NCBI GenBank assembly: GCA_014706385.1
Contig: JACGZH010000003.1
Span: 823,501-887,500 of the forward strand
Reading direction: 5' to 3'
DNA: 64,000 nucleotides
DNA from: Phaffia rhodozyma
Lineage: Eukaryota > Basidiomycota > Tremellomycetes > Cystofilobasidiales > Mrakiaceae
How positions within the stretch are numbered: the stretch's first letter is position 1; each line of letters opens with the position of its first letter. The translations under genes and the position numbers were made by a program. Shown here piece by piece: positions 8,788 to 15,416 of this stretch. The notes under the pieces were generated by a model, which saw nothing but the letters and a program-made list of their open reading frames with translations, had not been told where the DNA came from and did no database searches.

Positions 8788-10097
8788 CTAGAGAATCAAA
8801 CATCCCTTCCTGTTTTCATGAAAGGTACAAAAGAGGACCGCATACATATCAGCGGATATCAACATTATAAAGAGTTCAGTACAGGCGTACTTTTTCTTAA
8901 CCACAGGGGGTTCCAAAGCAGCGACGATGGCCTAGAATACCACGAATGAAAAACGCAACGTGTTAATATTGAAACATATCAATGGATGCGTCTTGAGAGA
9001 AAGGCCTGACCTCGTCGAAGACATTCTTGAGTCCCTTCTGCGTCAACGCTGAGCACTCCACGTATTTAACAGCTCCCAGCTCCCGAGCGAGTTTCTCTCC
9101 AGCGTCATGCGGCACTGGCCTCTGCTTCTGCTTGGCGAGCTTCTCCATCACCGCAGCGTCGTCTCTCAGATCCACCTGGGTTCCAACAATCAAGCAAGGA
9201 ACTCCGGGGCAGTGATGGTGGACTTCAGGGAACCACTTTTCCTTCACATTCTCGAATGATGCCGGGCTGGTGACAGAAAAACAAACAAGGAACACATCCG
9301 TCTGGGGGTACGACAAAGGTCTAAGTCGGTCGTAATCCTCCTGACCTGCAAATATAAAGATACACACGATGAGTTCGATACATAGATATCCGGAGAAAGT
9401 GTAAAAAAGACAGCTGAACGAACCAGCAGTATCGAAAAGACCAAGAGTATACGGATCCTCTCCAATCATAACGGTGACAGCATCTAAAATTCGATTTACA
9501 CAGCCGATAGTTTTCAGCATACGAGAGAAAAAATGATCATGACCAAAGTGCAACTTACAGTTGTCGAACACCGTAGGAACGTACTCGCTTGGAAACTGAT
9601 GTGATATTGGATGTCAGTAAGGCTCAGATGAACTTAGATTAAAACCTGACCAACTTTCTGTAATCGTCCAAATCGACACAGATCATAACGGAAACCTAGT
9701 CAGAAATTTAATATTCTCTTTTGCGTGGGCACAAGAGCAAACTACTTACATTAGTTGTGTACGAGATAAGCAAGCAAGTCTGTTGATACAAATAGACTCT
9801 GTCAGAACAGATAATTATCGAGTCCATGTTCAAACATAAATTGGCCATCAATCTTACCTTTCCGACTGCTCCATCCCCGACCTAGGTAAATTCAATCACA
9901 GAAGAAGAAGAATAACTGAGCATTCTTGATATCATCGACTTGAGTCGGATGCGGGAAGTAACTTATACTAACGACGACCTATATGGACAACAACAACACG
10001 CACAATGTCTGTCAGCCTTCATGCCATTCTTGTGAGAAAAGAGAAGCGAAATAGAAAAATAACAATAACAAGGACTGACACATTTGATAGTTTGCAT
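8788..10097 (-). CDS. CDC42: Rho-family GTPase Cdc42
   Basis: Ten coding exons were read by hand: 10080-10097, 9973-9978, 9858-9881, 9750-9779, 9655-9657, 9559-9595, 9424-9483, 9011-9345, 8891-8931 and 8788-8809. They sum to 576 nt, or 191 residues plus stop, exactly the usual Cdc42 length. Visible motifs are P-loop [11 protein letters not shown], switch [10 protein letters not shown], switch [20 protein letters not shown] and [18 protein letters not shown] polybasic KKKK lies before the CAAX box CLIL, so it should be geranylgeranylated and membrane-bound. Cdc42 is the master GTPase of polarity, budding and mating. The tail lies on its own 22-nt exon, and two internal exons are only 6 and 3 nt long. 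The upstream neighbour on the same strand is an SH3-RA polarity scaffold. Confidence 0.93.
9655..9657 (-). other. 3-nt micro-exon of CDC42
   Basis: The minus-strand context is GATTACAG|AAA|GTTGGT. It supplies the single Lys27 between TTN (exon ending 9750) and FPSEY (exon starting 9595). Both neighbours are in phase 0, so leaving it out keeps the frame but deletes a residue that family members have as K or Q. A CTGAC branch-like site precedes each flanking acceptor. Confidence 0.6.
9973..9978 (-). other. 6-nt micro-exon of CDC42
   Basis: On the minus strand the context is CCATATAG|GTCGTC|GTTAGT. The six bases encode two valines and complete KCVVVGDG between exon 1 (ends TGT|GTCAGT) and exon 3 (starts GTCGGGGAT). 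Every known Cdc42 has three valines here, so the exon is required. Confidence 0.8.
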
Positions 10098-10768: not shown

Positions 10769-13700
10769 TCAGAGACTGCTTGCACCCGCTGCGAGCCTCA
10801 TCACACCGTCCATAAGGACGTCCAGCTCCTTATCAAAGTCGTCCAATCTACCTTGAAATTCCATCAGCTCTAGCTTTCCCTCAAACACAGGCCCGTTATC
10901 CCAGATCTTCTTTCCGAATAGAAGGTTCTCAATTTCATCCGTCCCTTTAGCTCCTCCAAGGAGCGACCCGGTCGGATTCTGAATCATACTCTTTCTTAGG
11001 TTCTTGAGCGTAGGTTCCCTCGCCCGAACGTTGATCAGAGCCAGCATATTCTTTATCCCAAAATCATCCCGGGTGACAACCATCTGACTGAATGCACTTG
11101 AATTTGACCGGAAAACATCACCAGCCAAAGGCGCGCCATTCGAGATTGGCAAATTTCTGGAAGTTGTCGTCGGAGTAACGGTTTCTGAGCCGAAAATAAG
11201 AGGTGATTGGGCTGGGATTAAATTAGTCTCAATTGATGACTGATCTCGAACAGAAGACGAGGAGGAAACAATGGCCTCATGAGGTGCTTCGGCCTTGGAG
11301 AAGACTGTCTTCTGGTCGGCCACCGGTCCCAGTGCTAAGTAAGACGGTACCGAGGACAATGGTGGGCGGCTCGATGTAACGGGTCTCACAGATCCATCCC
11401 TGACCTTCTGTAGCACTCGATCTATCTTCTCATCCAACTCGGCGTCTGCTTTGGAGTCTGCGTCAATTGCGTTTTGGGGTCGGTCTAGCGCAACTTCGAG
11501 CACGTCTTCAACGAAGGGTGATATCGCCCTATGCGAGGTCTTTGGTTGAAGTTTGTCAGAGGATATTTTGGATTCCGCAGGCGTCCATTCCTGTTCGACC
11601 AACTCGCTGATGTCGTATTCAGTAGCACCATCAGGCTCTATGTAAGAGTACCGGATTTTGTCAGACCGTTCCGTACCATCCAACGAACGAGATGACCGGA
11701 TTGTTCCTTTATTGGAAATGACTACGTCCACTCCAAGGGATGCGTTGGTTGAAGCAGACAGGACAGCAAATTGACTAGCCTTCGATGCAGCACGTTGGGC
11801 GGCGATGGTCTCTTGAATCGAGAGTGGCGGAGCCAGAAATTGAGCGGCCACAGGTGACACCTGAGGTGATGGCTCATACGCCGATGCAGTTGAGACTGAG
11901 CTAAACTGGCTATGATCACCATTCCGACTGTCAAGACTTGATTTTCCAATATGTCCGTCAGAACTGAAGTCCATGACGGTAGAACCTCGGGAGCGTCTCT
12001 GAGATTTAGAGGGACTATTTGGCTTTTGAGCACGACGAAGAATGAATACAGGGTCCGTTGATAAGAGATCTTCCGGAGTCGCCAGGGAAACTTCTCTTGA
12101 GCGGCGCCGCTCACGGGGATCCATTGTTGGAGGCGACTTCAAATTCGGTGGGACACTATAATAATCGATGACTTTTGCAGAGGGACTCAGAACAGCCTCT
12201 AGCGACGGACCAAGCAAACAAGCATATGATCAGCACAAACAAGCAATTGTCCCATGAGAGGAGTGCAACACATCAACTGACCGTCATCCTGTCCAGGCGC
12301 CTTGAGTGCTAATTTATATCTAGCCCTCGTTTGACTTTTTCTTTTGCTTGGTTTGTCTTCTACGTCATCGCCTCCGTCCACCACACCGTCAGTAATCCCA
12401 AATCGCTCTAGAGCAACCTCAATCGCTTCAGCGATTGTGGTATTGGTAGGAAGTAAGATGTATCGCTTCCTATCTCCCGGAAGCGCATTGAATGAAGAAG
12501 AGGGAGGCGATGAAGGAGATAGAGGCGTTTGCTTTCTCATCTCTGATTGTGAGAGGATTGCTTCAGAGTTTGGGTCAAACACCATATTCTCAGGAAGATC
12601 CGAGATATGTATGGCAATCTGAAGGGTGAATCGACCACTTGGCACAGATCCAGGAAATGTCGATAGAGGCTCTTGAGAAAGGGAATCGATGGCAGAAATA
12701 AAACTGTTCACAGACACAGAGTCGTTTGCAGTCCTCTTGTTAAGATAGAGCTTGACTTGAGAGTCATCACTGTAGTCTCCTAAACGAGCGATTGCTGGAT
12801 GAAGCGATAAATTGGAGGTTACAGAAGAGATGGATCCAACAGATCCGCGTCGAATTCTAGGGACGACTAGGGACTCGTCTTCCTCCTGAAGACGATTAAA
12901 AACTATAAGCGGATGACCTTCAGATCCAAGGATAGTCTCTTCGCCATCAATCCCTTTGATGGTAAGTATATATTGCTCAGTCGCTCCCAGCGAATCGAGA
13001 CGGAACCTCTGAATTGCCTGACGAAGAAGTTCGGAGGTAGTGGTGGTGTCGTTGAGCAAAACAGTCTTAAATGTCGAGTCAGAGTTAATCTCGTGGCCGG
13101 CAAAGACTCGAAGGACCGAGAGCATCTGCGAACCACTCGATCTGTCATTTTTCATGAGAGAACTGGTCGACCCGACCGTGGGAGATATCAACAAGCTTCC
13201 CGGGCGAGGATGAGGATTGATAGATGCTCGGGTGTTGCGGTGGGTTGAAAAAGACTGAGCAATCGTTGCAGCTGCTTGTGTTCCGTATGAGCTTGAAGCA
13301 AGACCTTGATCGATCGATGTCTTTGAGCTAGACGTCAGATACTTTTGATACATGGCTTGTTGCTCTTGATCTTTTTGCTGTAGACGAAGTGCGAGGGGAG
13401 AAACTGCTGCACTCGGACTACCAGAGACAGATGGGGGCGTCCTAACATCTCGTCTGGGTTTTTCCGGATCGGCCGAGGCTGGGCTCTCTGCTGGTGAGAA
13501 AGCATTCTCAAACTGGGGTGTTCCAGTCGAAGACTTAGTGCTGATTTCATCCGATGAAGAGCGTGCGTCTATTGGGCTTGTCTCATCGGACCCTGGAGAG
13601 ACAACAGTAGAAGAACTGATACCTCGGTCCTTCTTATCCTTCTTTTTGAAAAAATTGACGAAAACACCTCCAGCCTTCTTTTTTATTCCCTCTTCACTGT

Positions 13701-15416
13701 CCGAACGCTTTATCTTTCTGGTCGCGTTTCTTCCACTTTCACCTTCGCTTAAAGAGCCATGGTCAGCAGATTCTTTTCCGTCCTCCTCCTCCTCAGGGGA
13801 TTCATCTTCGAACCGGCTCGTATTTTCGATGGCGACACGCTTCCTACCTGGACTGGATAAAGCATCCAGAAGATTGGTATCTGACCCGCTAGGATAAAAT
13901 CGAGGAGGGCCTTCTACACGAGCCACTCGAGGAGTAGCATGGATTTTGCGAGTTTCTCCGTTCTCGAGAACTTGTTCCAAGAAGTCATCCGTTGAGGTGG
14001 GACGCAGAGAGGAAGGCTGTTGAGGTGAAGAAGAGAGGTTTTGATGGTAGGGATTATTGGATTCTGCGATCTTCGCTTGATGAGCCGTGTTGGATGCGGC
14101 GATCTGTTCTGACGGAAGAAGGACGCGTTTAGTTGTAGGAGACTGTTCAGATCGTATGCTGGCAGCAGAAGTTTGTCGGGAGAGTGATGTTTGAAGACTG
14201 GTCCCAATGATAGAAGACCCAGAATTGGATGAACTGGGTGACTCATGAGTGTTGACTGATGAGGGAGATTGATTGGGGTTGTCAGCCGCATAGATGGGAG
14301 CGGAGGGAGCGAGGCCAGAGCTAGCATTAGCGACCGAATGGTCGTCCCAGCTCATTCCGTCATCTGGCTCCATCATCATCTTTTGGATCGCTTCATGTCG
14401 ATGATCGCTGGATGAGACTTCGTCGTCCATTAACGTTCGATCCTGATAGCTGAGGCCGTATCCTTCGCCCATCAAATCTTCTGTGGTTTCAGATTCCTGA
14501 GTAGCTTCTTCCTCATCAGAGCACTCGTTTGCCTCTCCCTCTTCACCTTCCATAAATTCTTCGTCTTCTTCCTCCTGTTCCTCATTGTCTTCTTCGTCGT
14601 CATCATCGTCATCGTCCCATTCCTTCTGAAATCCAGGGTGATCAACATAGGTAGGTTCAGCAAATTTAATTCCTTCAGGAGATTTAGAAGTTCTTGACGC
14701 TTCGGATGATGAGCGCGAGACAGCGGAAGGTGAGTGGTTTCGTAGTTGAAGTCTTGAACCTTGGGCTTGTTCGTTAGCCGTCGACGCAGCGAGCTAAGAA
14801 AACAATTTATAGAGCTATTTTCAGTTCTTGTGACACCTTGAAAACACCAAAGAGACAATCGACAGAGAACTCACATATATATTTTTGTGCTGGTTTAGCC
14901 TAGCCAGCCGTTCAAATGGGGTTTCGATCAACTCTGCTGGGATATAGCCAATCTGGTTGTCCTTTAAGACTTGAACCAGCCACCAGTAGGCATTTGAGTC
15001 GTCCCTAAGATGCAATGCGTCGTTTCTCGTGACATTTGCTTGACCTTCAACCGTAGCAACGAAATTGTTTCTGCAAGATGATGGAAATCAGATCAGCAGC
15101 TCTAAACAGTCAAAGCGATTCGTCTTGAGTAGACTCACAAAGCATAATTTATCGAAAAGTCGATGTTTGAGTCAATAGACACTGAGCTCTGATGAATGGC
15201 GAGATATACGTTGTGAATATGAATTCTCACTCTCGACTCAAACCTCAGGCATGACATATATTGTGCTTCGAATAGAAGGAACCAAAACTCACATGGACTT
15301 CATCTGAATAACCTTCTTCATCCCCTTCCTCATAATATTCGTTGGATCTGTCGTCGTCGTCTTCATCCTCATCGTGTGATTGATGGCTTAAGTCTAAAAG
15401 AGACATCTTGTAAACA
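10769..15416 (-). CDS. SH3 and Ras-association domain polarity scaffold (Tea4/Bud14-like)
   Basis: Predicted start at 15416 (MSLLDLSHQSHDEDEDDDD, an acidic N-terminus), stop at 10769, roughly 1,400 residues. An SH3 domain spans exons near 15180-14875 (NNFVATVEGQANVTRNDALH, YWWLVQV, GYIPAELIETPFERLARLN). The IETPFERLARLN extension is the signature that fungal Tea4 and Bud14 share after the SH3. Farther on, near 13130-12730, lies a Ras-association-like fold (LRVFAGHEI, TFKTVLLNDTTTTSELLRQA), and a second RA-like segment near 12640-12290 (RYILLPTNTTIAEAIEVALERFG). The 12280/12205 junction gives QDDEAVLSPSAKV in frame. Between the domains are long Ser/Pro-rich disordered stretches. Tea4/Bud14 proteins bring PP1 and formins to growth sites; RA domains bind small GTPases. 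The gene precedes CDC42 on the same strand. Confidence 0.75.

Follow-up and report, generated by a model that had tools for sequence, protein, structure and literature searches.

The CDC42 gene of the basidiomycete Phaffia rhodozyma, located on the minus strand at positions 10097–8788 of the window (the whole 64,000-nt stretch of DNA that was analysed; G+C content 46%), encodes a Cdc42 protein of 191 residues only if an exon of 6 nt and an exon of 3 nt are included. Both microexons were confirmed at the level of the genomic sequence, and we consider it very probable that they are real, normally included exons that are spliced by intron definition with removal of the flanking introns in turn, and that they belong to the tail of a near-random placement of introns. 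Should RNA bear out this exon map, a strongly conserved polarity gene relies on the joining of a 3-nt exon.

The CDC42 locus and its two microexons

The locus was parsed with a protein-to-DNA spliced aligner that was written for this analysis and sets no minimum exon length. Three fungal Cdc42 proteins from outside this genome, P0003 (Ceraceosorus guamensis), P0039 (Cryptococcus neoformans) and P0012 (Cutaneotrichosporon oleaginosum), were used as queries and gave the identical ten-exon parse (Table 1). The ten exons sum to 573 coding nt (191 codons), and when joined they yield a complete Cdc42 protein followed by a TAG stop codon at 8790–8788; all nine introns, ranging from 59 to 101 nt, are of the GT-AG type. 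The product could be aligned over its entire length with human CDC42 (1grn_A, E 7.2e-107), the residues contributed by the microexons being covered, was identical to it over residues 1–47 and showed 94% identity to P0003. It has the P-loop, switch I and II, the length and the end-to-end similarity of a Cdc42 protein as well as a C-terminal CaaX box (CLIL). Searches of the genome examined (19.77 Mb, 15 contigs) revealed a single near-identical Cdc42 locus and no other CDC42 orthologue. An earlier note on this DNA, made from the sequence alone, had assigned the gene to CDC42, placed the two microexons within it and counted ten exons giving 191 codons plus stop; the full-length match to 1grn_A, the spliced alignments, the exon joining and the enumeration described below bore out each of these points, and the four joins it had predicted (10080|9978, 9973|9881, 9750|9657 and 9655|9595) all matched the minus strand exactly. 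Close to CDC42, at window positions 12199–14553 of the minus strand, there is an ORF carrying a Ras-association domain (PF00788, E 1.2e-9), which we take to be reminiscent of Ste50.

Table 1. Exons and introns of P. rhodozyma CDC42 in window coordinates. Shuffles are those of the full alignment test; branch sites are candidates and are given by their distance from the 3' end of the intron.
Feature	Position	Strand	Length (nt)	Remarks
Exon 1	10080..10097	-	18	MQTIKC
Intron 1	9979..10079	-	101	GTCAGT...ATATAG; weak donor; candidate branch site CTGAC at 33 nt
Exon 2	9973..9978	-	6	microexon GTCGTC, Val7-Val8; 0/400 shuffles
Intron 2	9882..9972	-	91	GTTAGT...ACCTAG; no YTNAY candidate 6-60 nt from 3' end
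Exon 3	9858..9881	-	24	VGDGAVGK
Intron 3	9780..9857	-	78	
Exon 4	9750..9779	-	30	10 residues
Intron 4	9658..9749	-	92	GTAAGT...TTACAG; candidate branch site CTGAC at 42 nt
Exon 5	9655..9657	-	3	microexon AAA, Lys27; 0/400 shuffles
Intron 5	9596..9654	-	59	GTTGGT...CATCAG; candidate branch site CTGAC at 18 nt
Exon 6	9559..9595	-	37	12 residues + first base of Tyr40
Intron 6	9484..9558	-	75	
Exon 7	9424..9483	-	60	
Intron 7	9346..9423	-	78	
Exon 8	9011..9345	-	335	
Intron 8	8932..9010	-	79	
Exon 9	8891..8931	-	41	
Intron 9	8810..8890	-	81	
Exon 10	8788..8809	-	19 coding	C-terminal CLIL, then TAG stop

With 6 and 3 nt and GT-AG borders on all sides, exons 2 and 5 belong to the class of microexons (about 30 nt or less, between two introns), and both lie between phase-0 introns. 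Val7-Val8 fall in the first beta strand, shortly ahead of the P-loop, and Lys27 shortly ahead of the effector loop; without the microexons the protein would read KC-VGDG and TTN-FPSEY at these places. Single exons that could fill the two gaps were enumerated, allowing GT or GC donors, lengths divisible by three of up to 60 nt and flanking introns of at least 40 nt. Exactly one exon supplied VV in gap 1 and exactly one supplied K in gap 2. No other single exon on the list gave the exact residues, and a 3-nt GTC exon in gap 1 provided one V only and had a poor donor (-5.1). The claim that the 6-nt exon is the only way to obtain the triple valine thus stands for single exons of a length divisible by three with introns of at least 40 nt on both sides. 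Among 20,000 dinucleotide shuffles of gap 1, a VV exon arose in 37 and never with splice sites as good as those observed, while a K exon arose in 580 of the 20,000 shuffles of gap 2, five of which had sites at least as good as observed. When the full alignment was repeated on shuffled gaps, none of the 400 reached the observed score for either microexon.

The motif VVVGDG was present in 116 of the 120 best homologues (of 7,988 scored). At residue 27 these 120 proteins comprised 61 with TTNKFP, 55 with TTNQFP, one with TTNAFP and three that were off-pattern (one of them TNNKFP), so the position that the earlier note had described as a conserved lysine is conserved but the lysine itself is not. 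The junctions expected upon skipping, KCVGDG and TTNFP, were absent from the 125 proteins in two lists that each hold the best 120 of 7,988 (clustered at 90%), and when a Cdc42 version lacking VV and K was used as the query, complete Rho-family proteins were again top-ranked.

Tiny exons and intron positions in other genes

A survey of 29 gene-query pairs with the aligner yielded 32 exons of at most 15 nt. Five of them were dropped from the shuffle test because a neighbouring exon was shorter than 12 nt. For 18 of the 27 tested exons, including both of CDC42, the observed score was matched in none of 400 shuffles and the optimum contained the small exon. This group contains a 3-nt exon (TCG) of a RHO homologue (L005:2726-2728 (-), G000:C14), which is flanked by introns of 346 and 360 nt, a 5-nt exon in a RAB11 homologue (L021:920-924 (+)) and a 6-nt exon in an ARF1 homologue (L073:811-816 (+)). 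Moreover, an apparent 2-nt exon (GT), which completes Cys6 of a RAC homologue (RAC-b, L007:2944-2945 (-), G000:C3) and whose site context, read directly, places it between introns of 99 and 103 nt, was matched in one of 400 shuffles. The feature is therefore not peculiar to CDC42, where the earlier note had placed it, and tiny exons look like a property of this intron-dense genome. Seven of the tested exons were weakly supported or unsupported (score reached in 57 of 400 shuffles for L086, 6 and 15 for L084, 46 for L080, 15 and 2 for L025, and 400 for L028) and were set aside as evidence; for exon 7 of L022 the score was reached in none of 400, but the local optimum there lacked the small exon.

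The structure published for the CBR.2 gene of Xanthophyllomyces dendrorhous, another name of P. rhodozyma (exons of 82, 12, 121, 307, 111, 154, 92, 40 and 74 nt; introns of 247, 126, 104, 92, 95, 86, 121 and 87 nt; PMC4605618) was fitted by the locus G000:C1:1346150-1348150, with 16 of 16 splice dinucleotides and an open reading frame; the locus ends inside the last exon. The published CBR.1 structure fitted in part and without an ATG-anchored match; the exons that agreed measure 82, 35 and 173 nt and the introns 68, 93, 97 and 132 nt. The CBR.2 fit, together with the single locus nearly identical to Cdc42, speaks for P. rhodozyma as the source and against Cryptococcus. Two further observations were made on gene structure: the start codon of actin is apparently split AT|G by a 338-nt intron (L049:654-655 (+)), and a crtI-like multi-exon gene, all five pieces of which scored below the family cut-off, adjoins a histone H3-H4 pair (G000:C1:69953-74447).

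Several intron positions are common to related genes. CDC42 shares the introns after K16 and N26 with both RAC homologues, and the latter also have the C6 (phase 1) and P29 introns in common, so that a 9-nt exon is common to both of them. The V9 (phase 1) intron is found in one RAC and in RHO, the K96 intron in four Rho-family genes, and the RAB1 (L033) and RAB8 (L022) homologues share, in the same phases, a 13-nt WDTAG exon consisting of WDTA and the first base of G. Such sharing could mean that the positions predate the gene duplications, or that the same sites gained an intron on two occasions; the data fit both. In the Cdc42 model of Leucocoprinus birnbaumii (P0038) the sequence is normal from VGDGAVGK onwards and directly preceded by an unrelated N-terminus, the appearance to be expected if annotation had gone wrong at this very V8|V9 boundary. 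The Flagelloscypha Cdc42 model P0016 contains extra residues after DTAG, beside the position of the G60 intron of Phaffia CDC42. Both models look mis-spliced, and mushrooms may possibly have introns at similar positions.

The spacing of introns was compared with random placement for 102 spacings in conserved genes, taken from the 16 of 29 pairs with a good alignment; divergent or repeated genes were excluded. Observed and expected numbers were 1 and 2.8 for spacings of at most 2 nt, 3 and 4.1 (95% range 1–8) for at most 3 nt, 6 and 8.1 (inside the random range) for at most 6 nt, 12 and 11.9 for at most 9 nt, 19 and 18.9 for at most 15 nt, 20 and 24.5 for at most 20 nt, and 37 and 34.4 for at most 30 nt. 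Three of the 19 spacings of at most 15 nt (11 nt in L003, 9 nt in L022 and 2 nt in L007) failed the confidence filter. In this small sample of 102 spacings, no depletion of tiny exons relative to random placement was detected, suggesting that splicing imposes little or no minimum exon size here; the smallest classes were below expectation, and the counts may also accommodate a mild floor. On the evidence of the survey, tiny exons seem to be no special devices but the short tail that random placement of introns would be expected to give. Intron density in P. rhodozyma and its order is the highest that has been reported for fungi, at 7.5 introns per gene with a mean intron length of 111 nt (PMC5103461), and 15 scaffolds of the published assembly are described as covering 98% (PMC4393869, which also names the public RNA-seq run ERR575096). 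A bolder reading, on which our judgement is evenly divided, is that Phaffia, and perhaps all Cystofilobasidiales, set no effective minimum for the length of internal exons, which would follow random intron placement down to 2–3 nt, and that the spliceosome would thus work by pure intron definition. If so, hundreds of exons of 1–10 nt would have been overlooked in conserved genes, some of them kept since old gene duplications, as might be the case for the 9-nt exon of the two RAC genes and the 13-nt WDTAG exon of the RAB1 and RAB8 homologues.

Splice sites, mechanism and alternative explanations

The splice sites around the microexons were scored against 94 introns from the genome's own aligned genes (median 96 nt, shortest 67 nt, 95th percentile 242 nt), a training set that was parsed with a rough starting consensus and includes the introns between the larger CDC42 exons. 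Intron 5 is shorter than any of these 94 introns. The donors of introns 1, 2 and 5 fell below the training median (8.5th, 14.9th and 26.6th percentile, respectively), and the acceptor of intron 2 (CTAG) was at the 8.5th percentile. A YTNAY branch motif 6–60 nt from the 3' end was absent from introns 2 and 6, as it was from 7 of the 94 training introns. Microexons showed no sign of being compensated for by stronger sites or shorter introns; the introns upstream of the 21 confident microexons were, if anything, longer (median 115 vs 96 nt, P = 0.015, uncorrected). In a genome search that skips simple repeats and very common words, intron 1 and the stretch from intron 4 through AAA to intron 5 matched only themselves at E 0.001, and an introner origin of the flanking introns was discarded for these two single-copy stretches.

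The mechanism we find most plausible is splicing by intron definition or in steps, as proposed in the earlier note; it fits both the short introns of the training set and the lack of a detected exon-size floor. The standard spliceosome would suffice: U1 at the donor and U2 at the branch site would pair across each short intron, so that the exon itself would need no bridging. Three nucleotides should be too few to accommodate U1 and the 3'-site machinery at once, so that the flanking introns would be removed one after the other, and the intron still present would serve as ordinary exon sequence during removal of the other, leaving no minimum exon length. In evolutionary terms, the microexons would be the short tail of near-random intron placement in one of the most intron-dense fungal genomes known. 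The sequence establishes the gene identity, the exon map, the chance statistics and the similar cases in other genes; inclusion of both exons in the mRNA, their constitutive use and the order of intron removal are what we infer. Pairing of sites across the intron has been described in yeast, where Prp40 bridges U1 and the branch-point protein (PMC8378409). A domain search of the genome found FF domains at two loci (C1 and C8), both of them candidates for Prp40. A search with PF15230 (SRRM_C), a domain linked to the eMIC of SRRM4-type regulators, gave no match in the genome and none in control genomes either.

Two special forms of splicing were rejected: a stwintron, since the introns on either side of a microexon possess full GT and AG sites of their own and are separated by coding sequence, and recursive splicing with a zero-length exon, since the 6 and 3 nt must stay to restore the protein. 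An obligatory single order of intron removal, stwintron-like or recursive in that the inner site could be used only once the first ligation has taken place, is a variant of intron-defined splicing in turn and not exclusive with it. We regard it as rather unlikely for CDC42: steric interference between splice-site factors on microexons is an established view (PMC8378409), and the donor context of the 2-nt exon of RAC-b does change on ligation, but AAA forms the last three exon bases both before and after ligation, so that the donor context is unchanged and, as far as the sequence indicates, either order would leave a normal substrate.

Regulated cassette exons, with part of the mRNA skipping one or both in frame and the resulting Cdc42, lacking VV or residue 27, serving to control dosage, seem very improbable to us. 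Some skipping would be possible, since the length of each exon is divisible by three and the introns around it are in phase 0, and the introns that would then be formed (198 and 154 nt) are within the range of the genome (95th percentile 242 nt); of the four donors on either side of the microexons, three score below the training median. However, the fold predicts that a protein lacking VV would be without a proper P-loop strand and should lose nucleotide binding, none of the 125 best homologues carries a skipped junction, and other supported microexons (5, 7, 8, 11, 13 and 14 nt) could not be skipped without loss of the frame, which speaks against a general cassette pattern. It is hardly credible that one or both microexons are spurious and that the real protein lacks these residues or obtains them by non-GT-AG splicing. 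Although the 3-nt case is intrinsically short and K exons arose in 580 of 20,000 shuffles when site quality was ignored, at the observed site quality they were reduced to 5 and VV exons to none; skipped junctions were missing from the best homologues, and exons of this kind recur in several paralogues. The explanation that we prefer is that both microexons are real and normally included.

Comparison with known microexons

Microexons are an already known kind of exon, and the CDC42 pair is among the smallest fungal ones found by our literature search; no report of 2–3-nt exons in Phaffia or other fungi was found among the open-access papers listed, at most 20 titles per search. Since P. rhodozyma is a routinely grown and transformed yeast, an exon map confirmed in RNA would bring minimum exon size and the dispensability of exon bridging within direct reach of experiment outside plants and animals. 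Annotation can easily overlook small exons, as has been pointed out for plants (PMC8831610), and the gene models of intron-dense fungi may therefore lack residues in conserved proteins.

Within the same species, named Xanthophyllomyces dendrorhous in that work, the intron-dense CBR.2 gene was reported from genomic DNA and cDNA to contain an internal exon of 12 nt, four times the length of the 3-nt CDC42 exon (PMC4605618). Another basidiomycete, Phanerochaete chrysosporium, has P450 genes with microexons coding for 2–10 amino acids (PMC1184071); these belong to one family, the shortest (6 bp) is twice as long as the 3-nt exon, and they were proposed as candidates for alternative splicing. The microexon of Trichoderma virens Xlr2 is likewise fungal and has a role in the protein, but this organism is an ascomycete and inclusion depends on glucose, making the exon an alternative switch (PMC11121469). 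The animal microexons that depend on PRP-40/PRPF40A are too small for exon definition, and intron definition has been proposed for them as we do for CDC42; unlike the exons described here, they are often alternative and neuronal (PMC8378409). Very small coding exons that are often misannotated were also described in plants (15 nt or less, 1-nt exons included), where 2,398 cases in ten species are reported with RNA-seq support (PMC8831610), whereas the Phaffia case consists of one gene and a small survey of sequence. The view of the earlier note that 3 nt is near the physical limit was too strong, given the 1-nt exon of Arabidopsis APC11 (PMC4674806) and the apparent 2-nt exon of the RAC homologue. 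APC11 resembles CDC42 in that a constitutive ultra-short coding exon is part of a conserved gene, and its authors favour intron definition with sequential removal of the introns; it differs in being a plant gene, in the length of the exon, in the change of frame that would follow its loss, and in having been tested with cDNA and reporter constructs (PMC4674806).
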